NCBI GenBank assembly: GCA_013140605.1
Contig: JABFSL010000022.1
Coordinates: forward strand, 1-64,000
Origin: Anaerolineales bacterium
Lineage (GTDB): Bacteria; Chloroflexota; Anaerolineae; Anaerolineales; Villigracilaceae
DNA: 64,000 bases
Reading direction: 5' to 3'
The position numbers and the translations under genes are program-made. Every line of letters starts with the position of its first letter. Within the stretch, counting starts at the first letter, position 1. The notes below the pieces were generated by a model, which saw only the letters and a program-made list of their open reading frames with translations, had not been told where the DNA came from and searched no databases. Below are positions 1,573 to 59,640 of this stretch, piece by piece.

Positions 1573-3459
1573 ATGTCTGAAATAGACCTCGCCCCGTTGA
1601 AATCCGCGCTTGAATCATATATTCCCCTGGGACGTTCCGGGTTGCTGCCCGCTTTGCATGCGACTCAAAATATTTATGGTTGGATTTCCGAAGAGGCCGC
1701 CGCTGAGGTAGCAAAATCATTACGTGTGCCGCTTGCGGATGTGCATGGCGTGATCGAATTCTATTCGCTCTTTTATAACGATCAGGTTGGCAGGAAGTTT
1801 ATTCGCGTTTGCACCGATCAAGCCTGCGCTCTCAAAGGGGCAGATGGATTACTTGACCATCTCTGTAAACATTATGATGTGGAAGCGGGTCAGACGACCG
1901 AGGACCTGTCTCTAACCATTGAGCGGAGTCCATGCCTTGGGCTTTGCGAGCAGGCCCCAGCCGCGCTCGTGGACGATGATGCTGAGACGAATATCACTCC
2001 CGATTTCCATTCCTATGATATCGGCATTCCGCGCTCACTTGTCTACGGTTCGATGCGTGTGTTGACCGCCAATTGCGGCAACGGCACAACAACACTGGCA
2101 AAATACGGAGAATATTCTGCCTATAAAAAAGCATTGACAATGACTCCTGAAGAAGTCATTGCGGAAATGGATAAAGCTTCAGGGCTTGTCGGGCGCGGCG
2201 GCGCGGCATTCCCAACTGGAATTAAATGGAGCGGCGCCGCAAAAGCGCAGGCAGATCAAAAATATATCGTCTGCAATGCGGATGAATCTGAGCCGGGCAC
2301 GTTCAAGGATAGAGTTTTGCTGCTCGACGATCCGCATCGCACCATCGAAGGCATGTGCATTGCGGCCTACACCGTCGGTGCAACCAAGGGATATATCTAC
2401 ATTCGCGCTGAGTACCCATATATTGTGCCCGTTCTTGAAAATGCATTGGACGAAGCCCGTATGGATGGCTATCTTGGCGGGCATTTTGATATTGAAATCC
2501 GCGTCGGCGCGGGTGCCTACATTTGTGGAGAGGAAACCGCGCTGTTTGAATCGATCGAAGGCAAGCGTGGATTTCCACGTGTGAAGCCGCCTTTCCCAAC
2601 AACGAACGGTTTATTCGATAAGCCAACTGTAATTAATAACGTGGAAACGCTTTGTAATGTGCCGTTGATCATTTCGATCGGCTCTGCGGAGTATCGCAAG
2701 ATCGGCACGGAGAAATCCCCGGGTCCCAAACTCTTCTGCGTTTCTGGTGATATCGTAAAACCAGGCTTGTATGAAATCCCATTCGGTGTGACTTTGCGTG
2801 AACTGCTGAAAATGGCTGGCGGCGTTGCTGGGAAAAAATCTCTCAAGGCAGTTTTGTTCGGCGGTGCGGCGGGAGCTTTTGCCACATCCGCGCATTTGGA
2901 TGTGAAGTTGACCTTTGAAGACTTGCGCGCGGCTGGTTTGCCATTAGGTTCAGGTGTGGTGATGGTGTTCGATGAGACGCGTGATATGCGTGATGCATTA
3001 AATCGGCTTGGTAAATTCTTCGCTCACGAATCCTGCGGCAAGTGTTATCCCTGTCAAATGGGAACACAGCGTCAAATGGAAATTCTGGATCGTGTAGCCA
3101 AAGGAGATGTTTTGCCCGGTGATTTTGTCCGCCTGGAAGATGTCGGCTGGACGATGACGGATGCAAGCCTGTGCGGCTTAGGTCAAACTGCGGCGAGTGC
3201 GGTTTTGTCTGCGATGAAGTTGTGGCCGGAACTATTTGTCGAAGAGTCAAAGTTCGAAGGTCAGAAGGTGTCGAGAATTTCTAAAGTGTCGAAGGTGTCA
3301 AAGACAGGAAAGAAAGCTGTCGCGAAAAAGGCGATAGCTAAGAAAGTGTCTAAAGTTTTAAAGGTTTCAAAAGTGTCAAAGGTGAAACCAAAGACAACTA
3401 AGAAAGTTGTGAAAGCAACAACAAAGAAAAGCAAGAAAGCGATAACTAAGAAAAAGTAA
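1573..3459 (+). CDS. NAD-dependent formate dehydrogenase 1, NuoE-NuoF fusion (diaphorase) subunit
   Basis: Passes electrons between the formate dehydrogenase catalytic subunit and NAD in the cytoplasm. Residues 1-150 are a NuoE/FdsG-like thioredoxin-fold domain with a 2Fe-2S set at C80, C85, C121 and C125. Residues from about 155 to 550 are NuoF/FdsB-like, with the glycine-rich NADH/FMN stretch [37 protein letters not shown], and the 4Fe-4S motif ESCGKCYPC followed by SLCGLGQ. GGAGAA precedes the ATG. The next gene starts 32 nt downstream. Oddity: roughly the last 64 residues are a lysine-rich KVS-repeat tail (26 Lys) absent from the paralogue at 57862-59640; it is encoded by a 9-nt-period DNA repeat. 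Confidence 0.93.
3244..3390 (+). repeat. 9-nt-period repeat encoding a Lys-Val-Ser tail
   Basis: Units such as AAAGTGTCG, AAGGTGTCA and AAGGTTTCA recur about every 9 nt, with an interruption near 3305-3340. Because 9 nt is three codons, the protein reads K-V-S over and over. A similar AAGTTTGAAGGTTTG string occurs between genes at 63236-63283, so this looks like a dispersed family that has run into the end of the coding region. Confidence 0.7.
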
Positions 3460-3491
3460 ACCCGACCTTTGACTAAAAATAAGGTGAATTT

Positions 3492-4181
3492 ATGACAGTC
3501 ACATTCTTAATGGATGGAAAAGAAATCACAATCGAAGACGGCAAGACTTTGCTCGAAGCCGCGCGCGAAAATGGAATTGACATTCCCACCATCTGTTTCC
3601 ACGAGGCGACCACGGCCAATGCGCTTTGCCGAATCTGTGTCGTCGAGGTGGAGGGGATGCGGGTGCTCCAGCCAGCTTGTATCGTCGAAGCAGCGAACAG
3701 CATGAAGGTCCAGACGCGAAGCGAGAAAGTTATCCGCGCCCGCAGAACCATTTTGGAAATGCTGGCATCCACAATGGATTTGTCCGAAGCGCCAGAAATC
3801 CAAAATATGATGTACGAATATGGCGCGTCATCCAGCCGTTTTCCAGATGCAGAACGCAGAGAGTCGGAAGTCAAGGATGACAACCCGATGTATGTGCGCG
3901 ATTACTCGAAGTGCCTGTTGTGCTGGCGCTGTGTGCAGGTGTGCGCGGAAGATGCGCAATATACTTTCGCGATCAATTTCGATGGCCGCGGATTTGAAAC
4001 ACAGATTGGCACGTTCTTCGATCGAACCATTCCTGAAACAAGCTGTGTCTTATGCGGACAATGTGTTGCGGTCTGCCCGACTGGCGCGTTGAAACCGAAA
4101 CGCGAATATTTATTGGAACAGGGCATGAGTCCGCAGGAAATTAGTGTTTTGAATACTGGAAGAAAGAAACGTAAAAATTAA
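3492..4181 (+). CDS. formate dehydrogenase 1 iron-sulfur subunit (NuoG/HoxU-like)
   Basis: A 229-residue electron-transfer protein between the molybdenum subunit and the NuoEF-type subunit. The N-terminal ferredoxin domain has 2Fe-2S ligands C35, C46, C49 and C63. The C-terminal part carries two 4Fe-4S sets: C141, C144, C147, C151 and C185, C188, C191, C195 (ending CPTGAL). The His-Cys 4Fe-4S segment present in the corresponding part of formate dehydrogenase 2 (NHPQDCITC...C) is absent; here that place reads [12 protein letters not shown] without cysteines. AAGGTG is spaced well before the ATG. In the second enzyme this module is fused to the catalytic chain; here it is separate. Confidence 0.92.
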
Positions 4182-4233
4182 CCGCGAAGAACGCCAAGTT
4201 CGCTAAGAAAAAATCTTTGCGGACTTAGCGGTT
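4178..4233. repeat. inverted repeat at the end of the FeS-subunit gene
   Basis: AACCGC and CGCTAAG on the left can pair with CTTAGCGGTT on the right, with a GAAGAACGCCAAG spacer typical of dispersed CGAAG-type repeats. It overlaps the upstream stop codon and fills almost the whole gap to the catalytic subunit, so it may act as an mRNA hairpin inside the operon. Confidence 0.6.
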
Positions 4234-4251
4234 CGTTTTGATCTTGGAGGC

Positions 4252-6450
4252 ATGATGATTAAACCTGACCGAGTTGTTACAACCACTTGTCCGTATTGCG
4301 GAGTGGGCTGTAATTTGCAGTTGCATGTTAAAGATGAACATATCTTCAAGGTCACCTCGCCATTTGACTCGCCTGTCAATCACGGCAACTTATGCGTGAA
4401 GGGACGTTTTGGCTATGACTATGTCTATCATCCAAAACGGGTGACCACGCCGATGGTGAGGAGATACCTCTTGGACGGTAGACCGTTGACCATAGACCGC
4501 AGTCAATTTCCGTCATCGTCCACCGTCAACGGTCCATCGTCGTTCGATTGGGTCGAAACCGATTGGGACACCGCCCTTAACATCGTCGCTGATAACCTTA
4601 CGAAAATCTATAAACGCGATGGCTCGGATGCGATGGCGGTCTATGCCTGCGCCAAGGCCACCAATGAAGACAATTATCTTTTGCAAAAAATGTATCGCGC
4701 CATCTTCCGCACGAATAATGTGGATCATTGCACACGCTTATGTCACGCGGGTTCTGTGGTCGCGCTTCAACAAGCGACAGGTTCTTCAGCGATGAGCAAC
4801 ACCGCCTCGCAGGTGATTCAAAATGACGTGTTCATCGTCACTGGTTCGAATACCAGTGAGAATCATCCGATTATTGCTTTGCAAATGAAAGAGGCGGTTC
4901 GTCAGCATGGCGCGAAGATGATCGTGATTGATCCGCGCCGTATTGACCTGGTCGATTTTGCCGAATTGTGGCTGCCACTTAAGCCCGGCACGAATGTGCC
5001 CTTGTTTACCGCCATGGCTTATGTGATCGTTGAAGAGAATCTTGTCAATCACGATTTCATTGATGACCGCACCGAAGGCTATACAGAATTCCTTGCCACG
5101 CTTGAAGATTTCACGCCGGAATATGCGGAAGGAATCACAGGCGTTCCAGCGGAAGATATCCGCAAGGCTGCGCGGTTGTATGCCAATGCAAATAAAGCCG
5201 CGATCTATTGGGGCATGGGCATCTCGCAGCTATCGCATGGCACGGCCAGTGCGCTCGCCTTGATCAATCTTGCATTTCTCACGGGTCACATTGGTCGCGA
5301 AGGCACGGGGCTGAATCCCTTGCGCGGACAAAACAATGTGCAGGGCGCAAGTGACATGGGTTGTATGCCGTTCCATTATCCCGGCTACATGCGCGTGGAC
5401 AATGACGAGAATGCCGCCAAATGGGAAAAAACATGGAACATTGAATCGGGAGGACTTTCGCGTAAACTTGGTTTGACCACCACTGAAATTTTGAGTCATG
5501 CACATGAGGGTGGTATCCGCGCGTTGTATATCATGGGCGAGAACCCGATGATGTCTGAGCCGAATCTCAACGAAACGCGCAAGCACATGGAACAGCTTGA
5601 GTTCCTTGTGTCGCAGGATATTTTCATCAACGAGTCGGCGGCGTTTGCGGATGTCTTCCTGCCCGCGACTCCCTTCGCCGAAAAGGATGGGACTTTCTCG
5701 AACACAGATCGCCGCGTGCAGAGAGTCCGCGCCGCCCATGCCCCGCGCGGACAATCACGAGTCGACTGGCAGATTATCTGCGATCTGGCCCAGCGCATCG
5801 AATCCAAGCTGGGACTTGCTTCGGCTTACTGGAAGTATTCCAACCCCGAAGAGATCCTGCGCGAAATGGGCAATGTCAATTCAGATTATGCTGGCATCAC
5901 CTATGACCGTATTGATAAAGTTGGGTTGATCTACCCTGTGCCAGATATGACTCATCCCGGCACGCCGACTCTCTTCACCGAATCCTTCCCGCGCGGACGC
6001 GGAAAATTCCACCCGTTGGAATATATCCCTGTGATGGAAGAGGCCGATGACGAGTATCCATTCATCTTGACCACAGGCCGCGTGTTGGAGCATTGGCACG
6101 GCGGCACAATGACCCGCAACTCGTCACTTAACGAAGCCTACCCCGAAGCGCGCGTGGAAATGCATCCTGCCGACGCTGAGATTCATGGCATTCGAAACGG
6201 CGACCCTGTCAAAGTGCAATCAAGGCGCGGAGAAGTTATTTTGCGCGCAACGGTCACAGAGAAAACATCTGTTGGAGTGGTCTTCATCCCCTTCCACTTT
6301 GTCGAAGCCGCAGCCAATTTGCTGACGAACGATGCGCTTGACCCGCAGGCAAAAATTCCCGAGTTCAAGGCCTGCGCGGTGCAAGTCTTCCCCGCGCGGG
6401 AAGATGAATTGGCGAATCCTGATGCACTTTTGCAACGGGGAAGATATTAG
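4252..6450 (+). CDS. formate dehydrogenase 1 catalytic subunit, Mo/W-bis-MGD, cysteine form
   Basis: Oxidises formate to CO2 (or the reverse) at a molybdenum or tungsten bis-MGD centre. At 732 residues it has the molybdopterin oxidoreductase order: N-terminal 4Fe-4S motif C13-x2-C16-x3-C20...C48, the metal-ligand region DHCTRLCHAG with Cys164 as the predicted metal ligand, LNPLRGQNNVQGASDMG, and a C-terminal MGD-binding domain (TGRVLEHWHGGTMTRN). GGAGG precedes a double ATG; either could be used. The position equivalent to Cys164 is a TGA (selenocysteine) in the second enzyme. Residues about 75-98 are an unusual Ser/Pro/Thr-rich insert encoded by a dispersed palindromic repeat. The gene ends at a strong bidirectional terminator. 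Confidence 0.95.
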   Translation: MMIKPDRVVTTTCPYCGVGCNLQLHVKDEHIFKVTSPFDSPVNHGNLCVKGRFGYDYVYHPKRVTTPMVRRYLLDGRPLTIDRSQFPSSSTVNGPSSFDWVETDWDTALNIVADNLTKIYKRDGSDAMAVYACAKATNEDNYLLQKMYRAIFRTNNVDHCTRLCHAGSVVALQQATGSSAMSNTASQVIQNDVFIVTGSNTSENHPIIALQMKEAVRQHGAKMIVIDPRRIDLVDFAELWLPLKPGTNVPLFTAMAYVIVEENLVNHDFIDDRTEGYTEFLATLEDFTPEYAEGITGVPAEDIRKAARLYANANKAAIYWGMGISQLSHGTASALALINLAFLTGHIGREGTGLNPLRGQNNVQGASDMGCMPFHYPGYMRVDNDENAAKWEKTWNIESGGLSRKLGLTTTEILSHAHEGGIRALYIMGENPMMSEPNLNETRKHMEQLEFLVSQDIFINESAAFADVFLPATPFAEKDGTFSNTDRRVQRVRAAHAPRGQSRVDWQIICDLAQRIESKLGLASAYWKYSNPEEILREMGNVNSDYAGITYDRIDKVGLIYPVPDMTHPGTPTLFTESFPRGRGKFHPLEYIPVMEEADDEYPFILTTGRVLEHWHGGTMTRNSSLNEAYPEARVEMHPADAEIHGIRNGDPVKVQSRRGEVILRATVTEKTSVGVVFIPFHFVEAAANLLTNDALDPQAKIPEFKACAVQVFPAREDELANPDALLQRGRY
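4474..4548. repeat. in-frame 7-nt-period palindromic repeat inside the formate dehydrogenase 1 catalytic gene
   Basis: The left arm reads as seven-base units (GGTAGAC, CGTTGAC, CATAGAC, CGCAGTC) and the right arm (CGTCCACCGTCAACGG) is roughly complementary. Related sequence occurs at 26771-26836 and 55949-56006. It keeps the reading frame and adds about 24 residues between RRYLLDG and DWVETDW. Confidence 0.75.
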
Positions 6451-6492: not shown

Positions 6493-7905
6493 TTACTTCT
6501 TTTTCTTTTTCAAATTTTTTATCAATAAGTTTACACTTTTGTCGTCACCACCTATTCGTAAATACTTTTGATAGTCGGCGATAGCAGAAGCATGCTCTTT
6601 TTTTATTTCGAATACTATTCCACGGTTTTTATAGGCATCGGCGAAATCAGGTTTAATAAAAATAGCTTGGGTGAAGTCCTTGATGGCGGCATCAAAATTG
6701 CCTGTGTTGTAGTAGGCTATGCCGCGATCATAAAACGCATCAGCAAAGTCTGGCTTGAAGAGAATAGCCTTGGTGTAATCACGTATTGCGCTCTTTGAAT
6801 TGCCTTTCTCGTCGCGCGCATTACCGAGATTCCTATAAGCTCCTGCGTAATCCGGCTTGAGCCGCACAGCTTCAGTAAAATCTTTTATAGCTTGATTTAC
6901 ATCACCTAACTGATTAAATGCTACACCTCTATTGTTGAATGCTTCAGATAAATTGGGGTCAATTTGAATAGCTTCTGTGCAGTCTTTAATAGCGTCTGTA
7001 TAATTACCCAAATCTATGTAAGCGCTTCCGCGGTTACTTAGTACAGGAGCGTAATCTGGTTTAAGTTTAATAGACTTTGTTAGATTCTTGATAGCGTTTA
7101 GTGTTTCGCCTTTATTGTGAAGAGCAACTCCTAAATTGTTGTAGGCTCTGGCAGAATCGGGTTGAAGACGTATTCCTTCATTGAAATCTAAAATTGCGCT
7201 GTCTAAGTCTCTCTTTTCGCCATACACTGCTCCGCGACTAATAAAAGCTTCGGCAAAATCTGGTTTTAAGCTAATAGCCTTTGTATAACAGCGAATTGCT
7301 TCATCAAAATTGTTACTTTCTGAAAAAATGTACCCGCGTTCAAACCATGTTTGTGCCGTAAGTTGTTCTTCTTTCACAAGTGGTGCCTCATTAGCGGCTG
7401 ACTTCTCCGCTATGGCAATTTCCTTAGCTTCTGGTTGTAACATAGGTAGGTTGATATTACTCAAGGCGATACTCAAATAACGTTCCCGCAATCGATCCAT
7501 GGCTTCAAGCGGATAATCATCAGGAATTCGTAAACCGTTTATTTGGCTTAGGGTAGCTAGTTTTCCAGTTAGGGCATTTTTGATTAATGGACTTCCAAAG
7601 TCAAAACCCTCAACCATTAACGGAACTATATTACGCTTTTCATTCACCGCTGTTTCGATCTCGCGCCGAAGCCAATCACCAGGATTCTTGCAGTTTTCGA
7701 GAGCTGAAGGCGTGAGAACTACGATGAAGTGTGCTCTTGTCCTAATATTATCTAGGATTGCAGTTTCAAAATTTCCACTGTTTATGTTTTGAAAATCAAT
7801 GAAAACATCATAGCCGTGCATTGTCAAGTTTTGATAAATGAACAACGCCCACGGTTTGTTTGCTCGGCGATAACTGATGAAAACTGTCTTTTCGATGCGC
7901 CCCAT
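6493..7905 (-). CDS. TIR-domain protein with eight tetratricopeptide repeats
   Basis: Residues 1-150 form a bacterial TIR domain: the start strand KTVFISYRR, GYDVFIDFQNI, and a helix WLRREIETA whose Glu82/Glu84 fits the catalytic glutamate region of NAD-cleaving TIRs. After a linker, eight 34-residue TPR units run from about 187 to 455 (each ending K-P-D-F/Y-like), then a KKKKK tail. AGGAG lies upstream of the ATG. TIR-TPR proteins in bacteria are thought to signal or deplete NAD, some in phage defence, with the TPR part binding a trigger or partner. No partner nuclease or sensor is adjacent, so function stays open; the divergent neighbour is a nucleotidyltransferase module. Confidence 0.9.
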   Translation of the reverse strand: MGRIEKTVFISYRRANKPWALFIYQNLTMHGYDVFIDFQNINSGNFETAILDNIRTRAHFIVVLTPSALENCKNPGDWLRREIETAVNEKRNIVPLMVEGFDFGSPLIKNALTGKLATLSQINGLRIPDDYPLEAMDRLRERYLSIALSNINLPMLQPEAKEIAIAEKSAANEAPLVKEEQLTAQTWFERGYIFSESNNFDEAIRCYTKAISLKPDFAEAFISRGAVYGEKRDLDSAILDFNEGIRLQPDSARAYNNLGVALHNKGETLNAIKNLTKSIKLKPDYAPVLSNRGSAYIDLGNYTDAIKDCTEAIQIDPNLSEAFNNRGVAFNQLGDVNQAIKDFTEAVRLKPDYAGAYRNLGNARDEKGNSKSAIRDYTKAILFKPDFADAFYDRGIAYYNTGNFDAAIKDFTQAIFIKPDFADAYKNRGIVFEIKKEHASAIADYQKYLRIGGDDKSVNLLIKNLKKKKK

Positions 7906-54994: not shown

Positions 54995-57823
54995 TTACGC
55001 CAATTCCACTTTGACTGCCACGATTTTATATTCAGGAATTTTTGCAACCGGGTCAAGTGATGCGTGTGTCAACTCATTCGCCGATGCGTTGGGGAAGTGG
55101 AAATTTGCATAGACCATGCCGGGCGGCACGCGGTCTGTCACCCAGGCTTGGGCTGAAATATTTCCGCGGCGGGATGTAACGCGCACAAAACTCTTTGCGA
55201 TCAGTCCCATCTTTTCAGCGTCATTTGGATTCACTTCGATCAAAGCCTCGCCGTACACTTCCATCAACCCTTTTGCGCGGCGCGTCATCTGTCCGCCGTG
55301 CCAGTGATAAAGCACGCGACCTGTGCTCATTAACATTGGGTAATCGTCGTCGGGTTTCTCAGCGGGCGGCACATGGTCAATGGGCATGAACTTGCCTTTT
55401 CCGCGCGTGAATTGTTTGGTGTGCAAAACTGGTGTCCCCGGGTGTTCCAATGTCGGACATGGCCATTGCAGACGTTCGCCTGCTTCAAGCCTTGCATGTG
55501 TGATTCCGCCATAGGATGGGGTCAATGCGTTGATCTCGGACATGATCGCGGATGAGTCAACATAGTCCCAGCCAGAATAAGGCGCATCGGAGCGGACCCG
55601 GTCACTGGTCCCGGCCAAGAGGCGTTTTGCAATCTGACAGGTGATCCACCAATCGTCCCGAGCATCGCCTTGTGTGGGAATCGCCTTGCGCACCATCTGC
55701 ACGCGTCGTTCGGTATTTGTGAACGTGCCAGTCTTCTCTGCGAAGGTAACGCCGGGTAAAAGTACATCCGCATACGCGGCAGTTTCAGAGGGGAAGATTT
55801 CCTGTAAAACAAGAAAATCAATTGATTCAAAGCAGTGCCGAATGTGTTTCGTATCAGGGTCAGACATCACAGGGTCTTCGCCGAGCACATAAAGCGCATG
55901 AGTCTTGCCTTCGAGGATACCGGGCACCATTTCAGTGACAGTTGCTCCGACGGTGGACGATAGACCGCGGACCGTTTTACCGTCAACCGTCCTTGGTCCA
56001 CTGTCCAAACCCCACGCCCTTGCGAATTTTTCGCGCACTTCTTCGCTCGTGACTGGCTGGTAGGCTGTGTAAACATTCGGCAGGCCGCCCATGTCACACG
56101 CGCCTTGCACGTTGTTCTGTCCGCGTAATGGATTCACCCCGCCGCCAGCCTTGCCCATGTTGCCAAGCAGCATTTGCAGGTTGGCGAGATCCATCACGTT
56201 ACGCACGCCAACGATATGCTGTGTGATGCCCATGGCCCATATCACAGCCATCGGGCTGTTTTGAGCTATGATTTCTGCGGCTTCATAAAGTTTTTCAACA
56301 GGCACGTTTGTAGTTTTTGCAACCACATCCGGCGGATAGTTCATCACGGTGGCTTTGAACTGATCAAAGTTTTCTGTGCGTTCATCAATGAAGGATTTAT
56401 TCTCCCATCCTTTTTCGAGGATGATGTACATCAAGCCGTTGATCAGGGCGATATCTGTGCCGGGTCTGTGGCGCAGATGAAGCGTGGCGAATTCGGTAAT
56501 GTCAATCTTGCGCGGATCAGCCACGACCAGTTTTGCGCCGCGCTGCCGCACCGCCTGACGGAGCATGGCTCCGAAGACAGGATGCTGTTCAGTTGTATTG
56601 GAACCAATAATGAAGAAGGCTTTTGCTTCTTTTGCCACATCGTCCATTGAGTTGGACATGGCACCCGAGCCGAAGGAGGCAGCCAGACCGGCTACCGTGC
56701 TGGAGTGTCAGAGACGGGCGCAGTGGTCAATGTTGTTCGTGCCAATGACCTGTCGCGCCAGTTTGTTCATCAAATAATTTTCTTCGTTCGTGCATTTCGC
56801 CGAAGTGAGTACGCCAATGCTGTCTGCGCCGTAATTTTTACGGGTTGTTGCAAGTTTGTCCGCAACAATATCGAGAGCCTTGTCCCATTCGGTTTCCACC
56901 CAATCCCACTGTCCACTGTCCACTGCCCACTGCTCACTGATAACTGGTTTCTTCTTCCCTTCCAATAAATATCTTCTAACTTTAGGCTTTGTCAATCTCT
57001 CTGGATGGTGAATGTAATCATATCCGTAACGCCCTTTTACGCATAATGCCATTCCGTTGACAGGTGAATTTGGATTGGACTGCACGCCGATGACTTTCTT
57101 GTTTTTCACCAGTAAATCAAATTGACAGCCTACGCCGCAATAGGAGCATGTGGTGGTGACTTTAGTCACCTGATGCGCGCGGGCAGTTCCGTAATTCATC
57201 TTGTTCGAGAGTGCGCCCGTTGGGCAGTACGCCATGCATTGGCCGCAAGACTCGCAGCGTGCCTCGAGCATGGTGGTGCCAGCGCCCGCAACGATGATCT
57301 CATCAAATCCGCGTTTTGCCACGCCCCACACATCGCGGACTTGAATCTCTGCGCAAGCTGAAACACATCGTCGGCAAAGGATGCAGCGATTCATGTCCAC
57401 GCGGATGAATGGATTTGGGTCGCTGTTGACTGGATATCGTGTGCCTTTGCTTCCCCACTCCGGCGCGGATGCTTTGTATTCATAAGCCAGGTCTTGCAGT
57501 TCGCATTCACCGCTGACATCACAGGTAATGCAATCCTGCGGATGGTTGGCGAGCATCAGTTCCAAAGTCAACTTGCGGTCTTTGGTAACTTTTTCGCTGT
57601 GCGTTTGAATCTCCATGCCTTCCCAAACGGGTGTCACGCATGCGGCTTGTAGAAATCTCCCGCCTTTAACTTCTACAATGCACATGCGGCAGTTGCCGGT
57701 GGGATTCAAATCCTTGTGATAGCACAAAGTAGGAACTTCAATACCATGTGCCTGCGCGGCTTGTAAAACTGTCTGTCCTGCTTCTGCCTGAATGGATTGT
57801 CCGTTGATTGTTATGTTAACCAT
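54995..57823 (-). CDS. formate dehydrogenase 2 catalytic subunit, selenocysteine form, fused to the FeS module
   Basis: Read through one in-frame TGA (56710-56708), this is a 942-residue selenoprotein. Residues 1-215 are NuoG-like: 2Fe-2S at C34, C45, C48, C62; His-Cys cluster H94, C98, C101, C107; 4Fe-4S sets C147-C157 and C190-C200. The molybdopterin domain starts at TTTCSYCGVGCQFDL. Residue 372 is the TGA in DHCARL-U-HSSTV, the exact position of Cys164 in formate dehydrogenase 1, and a SECIS-like hairpin follows. Downstream are LRGQNNVQGACDMGG and STGRVLYHWHGGQMTRR. Residues about 293-306 and 607-625 are encoded by repeats. Oxidises formate, passing electrons to the NuoEF-like subunit. Confidence 0.92.
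55949..56006. repeat. 7-nt-period palindromic repeat in frame in the formate dehydrogenase 2 catalytic gene
   Basis: Units GGTGGAC, GATAGAC, CGCGGAC then inverted ACCGTCAACCGTCC. It encodes SGPRTVDGKTVRGLSSTV, an insert relative to formate dehydrogenase 1, which has only NIESGGLSRKLG there. Confidence 0.75.
56678..56710 (-). other. selenocysteine TGA codon with bacterial SECIS-like hairpin
   Basis: On the minus strand TGA is followed by 11 nt, then the stem GGTAGCC (56696-56690), the loop GGTCT (56689-56685) and the stem GGCTGCC (56684-56678); the arms pair over 7 bp with one G-T. The loop begins 18 nt after the TGA. The E. coli fdhF element, as I recall it, has the same GGTCT loop at the same distance. 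SelB would bind this loop to insert selenocysteine. Confidence 0.88.
56906..56948. repeat. CACTGNN heptamer repeat in frame in the formate dehydrogenase 2 catalytic gene
   Basis: Six consecutive heptamers: CACTGTC twice, CACTGCC, CACTGCT, CACTGAT, AACTGG. It encodes PVISEQWAVDSGQW at the same loop (after RRYLLEG, before DWVETEW) where formate dehydrogenase 1 has a different repeat. Confidence 0.8.
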
Positions 57824-57833
57824 TGTTTCACCT

Positions 57834-57871
57834 TCGACTACTCGACTATGTGACTAAGTAACTATTTGACC
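57834..57871. repeat. GACTANNT octamer repeat between the two formate dehydrogenase 2 genes
   Basis: Octamers GACTACTC, GACTATGT, GACTAAGT, AACTATTT fill the short gap and include the stop codon of the NuoEF-like subunit gene. Confidence 0.65.
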
Positions 57872-59640
57872 AACTCCGCTTTCGCAAACTCCGCGCCAAA
57901 ATGGGTCAGCACGGATTTCATCGGGATCGGCACGGATTGTCCCAGCCCGCAGAAGGACGAGTCTTGCATGAGCACCGCGAGAGTCTTTAACTCATCGGTG
58001 TCGCCTTGCTGACCTTGTCCGCTTACGAGGCGGTTTAGGATTTCGAGCGAGCGCCAGGTTCCAACACGGCAGGGCGTGCATTTGCCGCAGGATTCCGCCG
58101 CGAAGAAATGTAGTAACTCGCGCAGGAATGCCACTGGTGAAACTGTCTGATCGCAGATCAGGAATGAACCCGCGCCCATCGAGATGACTTGTGTCCAGCG
58201 TTTTTCCATGGCTTTGATATCGCGCGTCACGCCTTTGAGCGGGCCTGAGCTATAGTCAATGTGCGCATCCACCAATGCAGGCGGGACAATTGTCCCAGCC
58301 GCGCCGCCGCAGAGTGCGAAATTGAAAGTTGAGCCAGGCAGCATTCCGCCGCCGAAGTCATTGATAATTTCGCGTAAGGTCAACCCAAAGGGAGCTTCGA
58401 ATAGACCAGGATTCTTCACGTGTCCCAGCACCATATAAACTTTTGTGCCCGGCGTGGGATCATCGGTTAGATTGCGCCACCATTCCGCGCCATTTTTTAC
58501 GATGTGCGGTACTGCGCAAAACGATTCAACATTATTGACTGCTGTTGGCTGCCCTCGGAAACCATAAGTGGGTGGGTAGGGCGGACGAAGTCTTGGCTCT
58601 CCGCGTTTGCCTTCGAGTGACTCGATCAGTGCAGTCTCTTCACCGCAGATGTATGCCCCCGCACCCCGATGCACATGGATTTTGAAAGAGAAGCTGCTCC
58701 CTAGAATATTTTCGCCAAGTAAATTCTTTGCTTCCGCTTGTTCAATGGCTCGTTCCAAACGACGTGCCTGATATTCATATTCGCCGCGGATATAGATCCA
58801 CGCTTCTGACGCGCCGCAAGCGTATCCTGCGATGGTTATACCTTCCAGCAATTGATGCGGATTCGTATCCATCAACACACGGTCTTTGAAGATGAGCGGC
58901 TCGGATTCATCAGCGTTGCAAACGATGTAACGCGGAGTCCGTTTTTCGCTGGCGACGAAACGCCACTTGCGTCCCACAGGAAAGCCCGCGCCGCCGCGTC
59001 CTTGCAGGCCGGATGATTCCACTTCCGCAAGAACAGCCGTCGGGTCGGATTGAAGCGCTTTTTTTAATCCATCATAAAGGCCGTGCTCCAGTGCAGATTC
59101 GATTTCATCTGGATTAACTTTTCCGATTAAGGCAGTCATCACACGGACTTCGCCTTTGCGCGGCGTTGAATAATCTGTCTGCACACCGCGCCAACCCTCG
59201 CAAACTTTTGCGGCATTTTGTGCTTCGACTGGCCCCGCCTGTTCGTCCTCCACCAAAACTGCTGGCGCGCGATCGCATAAGCCAAGACATGAAGTGCGTT
59301 CAACTGTAAAATCTTCGCCCACCTTGTTTTGCCACTCACTGTTCACTGATAACTGGTTACTGGCTTTCTTCAACCAGCAGACCGGGCCGTCACAAACACG
59401 TAAAACCTTTTTGCGTTCTTCAAGCGAGAGCATGGAATAAAACGTTGCCATTCCATACGCTTCGTGCGCAGGGAGGTGAAGGGCGCGTGCAGTTTCAGTT
59501 ATGGTGACAGAATTCAAATTGTTTTTTGCGTCGAGATCTTTGAGAACCTCAAGTGTGGCTTCCTGCGTGCCGCCATGATGCAATGCGAGTTCTTCGATCT
59601 CCGGGTCAACAGGTTTGTAGACGATCTTTTTATTTGTCAT
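57862..59640 (-). CDS. formate dehydrogenase 2 NuoE-NuoF fusion (diaphorase) subunit
   Basis: A 592-residue paralogue of the subunit at 1573. The NuoE-like domain (1-150) has cysteines in RVCDGPVCWLK and RTSCLGLCDRAP. The NuoF-like part has [46 protein letters not shown], the 4Fe-4S motif ESCGKCTPC and SSFCGLGQS. It lacks the lysine tail of its paralogue. Residues about 93-104 (ASNQLSVNSEWQ) are encoded by a CACTGNN repeat between the two cysteine pairs. It is the first gene of the operon, with its own promoter and GAGG upstream, 38 nt before the catalytic gene. Couples formate oxidation to NAD reduction. Confidence 0.94.
   Translation of the reverse strand: MTNKKIVYKPVDPEIEELALHHGGTQEATLEVLKDLDAKNNLNSVTITETARALHLPAHEAYGMATFYSMLSLEERKKVLRVCDGPVCWLKKASNQLSVNSEWQNKVGEDFTVERTSCLGLCDRAPAVLVEDEQAGPVEAQNAAKVCEGWRGVQTDYSTPRKGEVRVMTALIGKVNPDEIESALEHGLYDGLKKALQSDPTAVLAEVESSGLQGRGGAGFPVGRKWRFVASEKRTPRYIVCNADESEPLIFKDRVLMDTNPHQLLEGITIAGYACGASEAWIYIRGEYEYQARRLERAIEQAEAKNLLGENILGSSFSFKIHVHRGAGAYICGEETALIESLEGKRGEPRLRPPYPPTYGFRGQPTAVNNVESFCAVPHIVKNGAEWWRNLTDDPTPGTKVYMVLGHVKNPGLFEAPFGLTLREIINDFGGGMLPGSTFNFALCGGAAGTIVPPALVDAHIDYSSGPLKGVTRDIKAMEKRWTQVISMGAGSFLICDQTVSPVAFLRELLHFFAAESCGKCTPCRVGTWRSLEILNRLVSGQGQQGDTDELKTLAVLMQDSSFCGLGQSVPIPMKSVLTHFGAEFAKAELVK
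59331..59363. repeat. CACTGNN heptamer repeat in frame in the NuoEF-like gene
   Basis: Units CACTGTT, CACTGAT, AACTGGT, TACTGG. It shares CACTGATAACTGG exactly with the copy in the catalytic gene and is translated as part of the 2Fe-2S domain. Confidence 0.78.

Follow-up and report, generated by a model that had tools for sequence, protein, structure and literature searches.

A lysine-rich C-terminal tail under selection on the diaphorase subunit of a predicted formate dehydrogenase from Anaerolineales, and look-alike tails on other enzymes

The window analysed here, a stretch of 64,000 nucleotides from contig JABFSL010000022.1 of an Anaerolineales bacterium, carries on its forward strand the operon of a predicted formate dehydrogenase (FDH), whose NuoE+NuoF-type (diaphorase) subunit ends in a lysine-rich tail. 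The gene for this subunit (1573-3459) encodes 628 amino acids (aa), tail included, and was assigned by its operon and by Pfam matches to the domains 2Fe-2S_thioredx, Complex1_51K, SLBB and NADH_4Fe-4S. The conserved enzyme core occupies residues 1-556 (1573-3240), as delimited by the limits of homologue matches and the ends of tailless orthologues, and is linked by a junction reading EESKFEGQ (3241-3264, placed by orthologue comparison) to the tail itself, residues 565-628 (3265-3456). A sequence-only reading of this DNA had described a tail of about 64 residues with 26 lysines, and we find exactly this; the 12-residue stretch that it had placed after the K-V-S repeats, at the end of the protein, actually lies in mid-tail. 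Past residue 556 there are 27 lysines and one arginine among 72 aa, and the lysine fraction of the final 60 aa, 0.42, is the highest among 328 open reading frames (ORFs) of at least 100 aa from the same genome, whose mean is 0.059 with a standard deviation of 0.043. Since all 60 listed matches to homologues of solved structure end at query residues 544-567, the tail is no part of the known fold. The beta subunits of NAD-dependent formate dehydrogenases (PDB 6tg9, 6vw7 and 7e5z) likewise have a NuoF-like chain, and 7e5z matches the fused NuoE+NuoF core across query residues 18-558; in all three, the match stops at the core and leaves the tail uncovered.

Two further subunit genes follow on the same strand. 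The first (3492-4181), assigned by the Pfam domains Fer2_4 and Fer4 and by its place in the operon, encodes a NuoG-N-terminal-like Fe-S subunit of 229 aa with a short basic C-terminus, GRKKRKN. The second (4252-6450) encodes the 732-aa alpha subunit, which scores 787 bits against the NCBIfam model TIGR01591 of the formate dehydrogenase family (cutoff 666). With this alpha subunit and a NuoE-/NuoF-like diaphorase module in one operon (1573-6450), the locus is predicted to encode an NAD-dependent, Fds-like formate dehydrogenase complex. The tail is missing from the paralogue at 57862-59640 on the reverse strand, which ends in ..GAEFAKAELVK and had been correctly said to stop short of it, and from a NuoF paralogue on contig C114, which extends only 6 aa past the core.

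To place the tail in its family, we collected 90 orthologous loci and retained 86: L016 (Anaerolineales bacterium BIN17) and L005 (Chloroflexi bacterium CFX4) were dropped as duplicates of L095 and L147, whose core and ending they share, and L194 and L195 because their match falls short of the C-terminus. Tails of 45-97 residues are present in 30 of the 86, and the other 56 end at most 15 residues past the core, with no intermediates; because so many orthologues have none, the tail must be dispensable for the reaction. The tails are spread over six genera (g1, g7, g9, g15, g24 and g25), yet all 30 fall inside a single 62-row clade of the core tree, a quick maximum-likelihood tree with Shimodaira-Hasegawa-like approximate likelihood ratio (SH-aLRT) support only, which gives this clade a value of 90. 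The tree demands at least 11 changes of tail state, 8 of them forced by starred branches. A single gain followed by repeated loss would be the simplest reading of this tree, the change count by itself being unable to separate gain from loss, and we regard the tail as old, selected and repeatedly lost. Outside the family, none of 77 core homologues has such a tail (78 were collected, and L036, which does not reach the C-terminus, was omitted), and two have ends of 22-24 aa with at least 20% lysine. The tail is thus in frame behind a complete core; it is inherited together with the gene and has repeatedly switched between presence and absence.

The tails also resemble one another. Together, the 30 are composed of 34.8% K, 43% A+V+S+T+P (P alone 3.6%), 6.6% D+E and 0.3% F+W+Y, with the acidic residues, on reading, mostly near the junction. 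A strict terminal motif of the type KK-x-[TSV]-[AST]-[RHN]-[KT]-[STP]-x-K-K-R closes 8 of them, from g1 and g9, and the branch of the window has C-terminal letters resembling KKSKKTTTKKK. When the final 14 residues were compared across three groups covering 25 of the 30 tails (L089, L102, L154, L179 and L192 excluded), their similarity exceeded 1000 of 1000 shuffles in each of the three comparisons, and the g9 tails L158, L146 and L165 have the C-terminal pattern common to tails of the window's genus. A similarity search with the tail peptide recovered nothing but itself; since it missed other tails that exist, sequence search is blind to tails of this kind. We also considered whether the tail is shifted to the next subunit where the diaphorase lacks it, and rejected this: among 78 NuoG-like ends, those of 27 tailed and 51 tailless rows (the latter including two duplicates) are alike.

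Selection on the tail was assessed in nine pairs of tails that we chose ourselves, with no tail reused, by comparing the ratio of nonsynonymous to synonymous differences (pN/pS) with that of neutral simulations realigned identically; the pairs are not strictly independent phylogenetically and the simulation is simple. Over the nine pairs pN/pS ranges from 0.14 to 0.48, and in seven it falls below the neutral simulation (P<=0.005). The lysine fraction, 0.28-0.42, lies above all 400 simulations in nine of nine pairs (simulated means 0.09-0.25). A neutral extension should show no amino-acid constraint and should lose lysine, whereas these tails are constrained and retain it; therefore, neutral drift is not supported, and the amino acids and the lysine content of the FDH tail are under selection.

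Tails of this kind are not confined to formate dehydrogenase. In surveys limited to ORFs of at least 100 aa, only 3 of 565 ORFs in 677 kb of the same genome have a lysine fraction of at least 0.35 in their final 30 residues, namely the FDH subunit, oligoendopeptidase F and a KorA-like protein (2-oxoacid:acceptor oxidoreductase alpha subunit). Among 705 ORFs from 814 kb surrounding out-of-family homologues, none reaches even 0.30 over the last 30 aa, and across 30 family genomes, whose 136 kb around the gene hold 115 ORFs, the FDH subunit alone is so tailed. A DNA pattern for KKxxxKKx recovers the same proteins of the genome and adds pyruvate phosphate dikinase (PPDK); 8 of its 11 matches are in-frame end tails of these four enzymes, and two of those matches reach a contig end. 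Look-alike tails are therefore present on PPDK, the KorA-like protein and oligoendopeptidase F of the window's own genome. Summed by genus over 125 of 152 genomes (eight genera), matches exceed the reversed control in g1 (810 against 552), g6 (153 against 89), g7 (110 against 33) and g9 (59 against 36). With a tail defined as at least 20 aa with at least 25% lysine, 52 of 70 fetched PPDK orthologues and 65 of 70 KorA-like orthologues are tailed, and 13 of the 18 tailless PPDKs terminate in SG....EDK or EEK. Each sample comprised the 30 best matches plus 40 drawn mainly from genomes whose FDH state was known. The pattern search in relatives also found lysine-rich ends on isocitrate dehydrogenase (Icd), transketolase, GyrA, Lgt, ribosomal proteins L21 and S20, a MobA-like transferase and one family without assigned identity, and a lysine-rich N-terminus on leucyl-tRNA synthetase. 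In one such synthetase (L406:3-1796, reverse strand, genome G117), the family match begins at residue 185 and the preceding stretch is largely lysine-rich.

The tails of FDH, PPDK and the KorA-like protein agree in composition, with 34.5-37.7% K followed by A, V, S and T, and 0-0.8% F+W+Y. Copying of a single tail between enzymes was considered and rejected, as the strict FDH terminal motif occurs in 0 of 70 PPDK and 0 of 70 KorA-like ends; its absence from these 140 ends suggests that the tails on different enzymes arose separately. Two KorA-like copies of the window's own genome (G000), on contigs C47 (L207) and C130 (L226), are 96.2% identical over 556 core bases and bear quite different tails; both contigs terminate within the gene, and the copies represent strains or paralogues. 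Such near-identical cores with different tails indicate that the sequence of the KorA tail turns over fast while its composition stays.

The sequence-only reading had attributed the tail to capture of a 9-nucleotide (nt) DNA repeat translated as a tripeptide. The repeat exists, but it is weak and no adequate explanation of the tail. Tandem Repeats Finder reports nothing at a score of 50 and, at a score of 30, an imperfect array on the forward strand at 3343-3384 (42 nt; 4.7 copies of a AAAGTGTCA-like unit; 75% matches; score 42) that is read as K-V/L-S. Together with a second, degenerate stretch recognised by eye at 3265-3300, which encodes 12 residues, it covers about 78 of the 192 nt of the tail, so that no clear tandem repeat underlies the whole extension. 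At lag 9, the 72 codons of this end show a DNA identity of 0.47, higher than in any of 2000 residue-order shuffles; under shuffles of codon order, the lag signal has P 0.028, third positions P 0.032 and the longest run P 0.945. The lag-9 signal hardly exceeds that implied by the K-V-S tripeptide. Of 12 tails tested, 9 lack 9-nt periodicity, including the g9 tails L158, L146 and L165; among the 11 from outside the window, L086 and L101 pass the residue-order test (P 0.03) and L109 gives P 0.053, and L086 has a long exact repeat run (P 0.038). That the repeat is a genome-wide element was considered and rejected, as a KVS-type pattern matches the window's own genome once, inside the tailed gene; none of 57 genomes of the genus contains the strict three-copy pattern (AAGGTGTCR)3. 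The 9-nt repeat does not account for the tail, and its K-V-S repeats represent a variation local to the closer relatives of the window. A 7-nt AAGGTCR repeat, by comparison, is present in 15 of 57 genus genomes (the window's own not among the 15; reversed control 0), and the short ending EGQRSKVTER of the L095 diaphorase reads like it, as do the NuoG-like endings SKVKGQRS in L147 and L151 and SKVKSQRS in L148. Capture of DNA repeats thus probably occurs in this lineage but yields short endings. A caution follows: a short DNA repeat within a lysine-rich tail need not have caused that tail.

The junction behind the core has features of its own. An inverted repeat lies there in 21 of the 56 tailless orthologues, matched by 0 of 60 shuffles (for example, GAAGGTCAAAGGTC..GACCTTTGACCTTC). 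Folded as RNA, four of five such junctions are stable (z -3.5 to -6.4), L144 (z -0.1) being the fifth. In several relatives an inverted-repeat arm occupies the place of the window junction at 3241-3264. Complementary arms flank the tail significantly in 5 of 30 tailed loci, and complementarity at the window junction is weak (P 0.066), so that we treat a tail sitting in a hairpin loop as a lead only. Variable inverted repeats were also seen in the gap between the diaphorase and NuoG-like genes of the window (3241-3491), L086, L095, L147, L093, L140 and L170; their sequence differs among species, yet the hairpin persists in many. Some relatives have a membrane protein gene between these two genes or downstream, identified in L154, where it follows the diaphorase, as DUF4153 by scan; by eye, the same family also comes next in L102, L157 and L171 and is a later gene in L105. 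The N-terminus of this membrane protein is lysine-rich in L154, L157, L171 and L105. The idea that the tail is the fused N-terminus of such an inserted neighbour was rejected, as tails also occur without it.

Elsewhere in the window, a second formate dehydrogenase alpha subunit (54995-57823, reverse strand) is interrupted by a single in-frame TGA at 56708-56710, in the context ..CARL-TGA-HSSTVAGL.., which we take to be the catalytic Cys/Sec position. Because the TGA is alone and at this site, the protein is probably a selenoprotein. RNA folding just 3' of the TGA is of ordinary stability (z -1.15), and the alpha subunit of the tailed enzyme has a cysteine at the corresponding position (CTRLCH). 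A 7-nt repeat, CCCACTG, occurs five times at 56905-56939, within the frame 56708-57823 of this second enzyme on the reverse strand. At 6493-7905 (reverse strand) lies a gene for a possible signalling or defence protein, with a TIR domain ahead of numerous tetratricopeptide repeats and KKKKK at its C-terminus.

On balance, we lean towards the view that the tail is a genuine, inherited and selected polycationic extension of the diaphorase subunit, one of several similar tails that arose separately on cytoplasmic enzymes of this Anaerolineales family. Several observations weigh against it. Most orthologues have no tail, and L179 was counted as tailed with 16% lysine, in a range that reaches 42%. 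Two of the nine pairs fall short of significance in pN/pS (P 0.052 and 0.058). The structure model is poor overall, with a mean predicted local distance difference test (pLDDT) score of 51.9, so that the values of 26-31 in the tail are weak evidence for disorder. The difference between 3 of 565 ORFs in the genome and 0 of 705 outside the family is small and not strong alone, and in the own genome neither KKxxxKKx (11 matches, reversed control 9) nor KKxxKK (16, control 19) is enriched. KKxxxKKx also shows no excess in g8 (92 against 216), g20 (58 against 61), g22 (41 against 37) and g23 (38 against 49). The samples of PPDK (70 of 140 genomes with a match) and KorA (70 of 138) under-represent distant genera. 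Tails on FDH and PPDK co-occur (both 24, FDH only 1, PPDK only 23, neither 17), with a Fisher P of 0.0006 that ignores phylogeny, and FDH and KorA tails are unassociated (25, 2, 31 and 3; Fisher P 1.0), as are PPDK and KorA tails (40, 3, 7 and 1; P 0.51).

Other explanations were weighed on the same evidence. That the frame was extended by a frameshift or misassembly could be suspected from the draft state of the assembly, which has 132 contigs, but 29 other assemblies have a tail in frame with the core, and we find an artefact scarcely credible. Neutral capture, in which a stop codon was lost and an intergenic 9-nt repeat came to be translated as K-V-S in an extension free to drift, would fit the periodicity of the window tail and its weaker counterpart in two others, as well as the in-frame endings that resemble AAGGTCR repeats at the diaphorase and the next gene. 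It is at odds with the aperiodic tails and the missing three-copy pattern, with C-termini that are alike between g1 and g9, and with similar tails on unrelated enzymes of the same genomes; lysine above the neutral simulations in every pair largely refutes it. We consider it very improbable, and both the origin by repeat capture and the neutral extension that the sequence-only reading had entertained give way to tails shared by six genera, aperiodic in g9. Ferredoxin is acidic, and the tail could dock this or another acidic protein onto a redox enzyme, or do the same for a partner subunit with an acidic patch. The FDH diaphorase and the 2-oxoacid:acceptor oxidoreductase are both redox enzymes and may have acidic carriers in common; however, PPDK, oligoendopeptidase F and transketolase are similarly tailed and are not redox enzymes, and we consider docking improbable.

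Two further possibilities keep the charge of the tail and change its target. Polylysine binds acidic membranes, and tailed Lgt is a membrane enzyme, so the tail might anchor proteins at a membrane or surface, or act as a solubility or turnover tag, with no specific polyanionic partner; FDH tails nevertheless offer few hydrophobic anchors, being as poor in aromatic residues as described above and containing about 4% Leu+Ile+Met, and we judge this distinctly unlikely. The tails might instead put enzymes on polyphosphate. The K/A/P-rich composition is akin to that of the KPAA tail of AlgP, a protein associated with polyphosphate granules (PMC9239181), and ppk genes are widespread in metagenome-assembled genomes of activated-sludge Chloroflexota (PMC10746286). 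Polyphosphate was, however, undetected in situ in those Chloroflexota (PMC10746286), and GyrA, L21, S20 and the N-terminus of leucyl-tRNA synthetase bear similar stretches in this family; a polyphosphate tether thus appears unlikely.

We therefore return to a selected polycationic extension as the preferred reading, in which the histone-like polycation of the sequence-only reading, with its possible binding to nucleic acid, polyphosphate or membrane, survives. The tail would be disordered and would act through its charge, like the Lys/Ala-rich tails of histone H1, HupB, TopA and AlgP. It may hold the enzyme at or near a polyanion that is plentiful in the cell, DNA or RNA being the likeliest, at the nucleoid or the ribosomes, and such a tether would govern where the enzyme sits or how crowded its surroundings are, and not its catalysis. 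An electrostatic tether seems most likely by analogy, because the known bacterial tails sit on DNA-related or granule proteins. We prefer nucleic acid to polyphosphate on two grounds: similar stretches occur on nucleic-acid proteins of the family, and polyphosphate went undetected in situ in activated-sludge Chloroflexota despite widespread ppk.

The precedents are informative in both their likeness and their difference. The AlgP and PhaF KPAA domains of Pseudomonas are also Lys/Ala/Pro-rich, repeat-containing C-terminal tails, predicted to be disordered and compared with H1 (PMC9239181), and the FDH tails are, like AlgP-type and histone H1-like tails, long K-dominated segments of A/V/S/T/P with few acidic or aromatic residues. 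AlgP and PhaF, however, have regular KPAA repeats over 154 aa (PMC9239181), whereas the tails described here have varying units and an enzyme as host; no regular KPAA or AKP unit is found in the FDH tails, which use KVS, AKK, VKK and mixtures. AlgP is found with polyphosphate granules and the nucleoid (PMC9239181). Actinobacterial TopA, as well as Ku and HupB, also have H1-like lysine additions at the C-terminus of a complete protein: TopA has lysine repeats that stabilise it on DNA, and Ku and HupB have lysine-rich ends (PMC7398561). DNA binding is on record for lysine-tailed precedents (PMC7398561, PMC9239181). TopA, Ku and HupB act on DNA (PMC7398561), whereas the carriers described here include metabolic enzymes, several in one lineage. 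Lysine-rich low-complexity regions, likewise often C-terminal, occur in prokaryotic ribosomal and DNA-binding proteins, and L21, tailed in the relatives studied here, is often lysine-rich (PMC6821194). The same source ties such regions to nucleic-acid proteins (PMC6821194), whereas the tails described here also sit on FDH, PPDK, the KorA-like protein, Icd and transketolase.

A bolder proposal, which we regard as rather unlikely, is that lysine-rich C-terminal tails serve this family as an all-purpose charge tag, acquired convergently, by which enzymes of central carbon metabolism (formate dehydrogenase, 2-oxoacid oxidoreductase, isocitrate dehydrogenase, PPDK and transketolase) are brought together on a shared polyanionic scaffold such as nucleoid, RNA or polyphosphate, an assembly that would be specified by composition and not by sequence. 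A search of full-text literature, outside which most subscription journals lie, found no lineage with lysine-rich tails on several central metabolic enzymes. Lysine-rich, histone-like tails of bacteria are already known, and the novelty here is that metabolic enzymes carry them: several unrelated ones in a single lineage are tailed, apparently by separate gains, and on formate dehydrogenase at least, selection preserves the tail even as its precise letters change. If such tails do place enzymes on a polyanion, they would offer a simple and evolvable way to organise bacterial metabolism.
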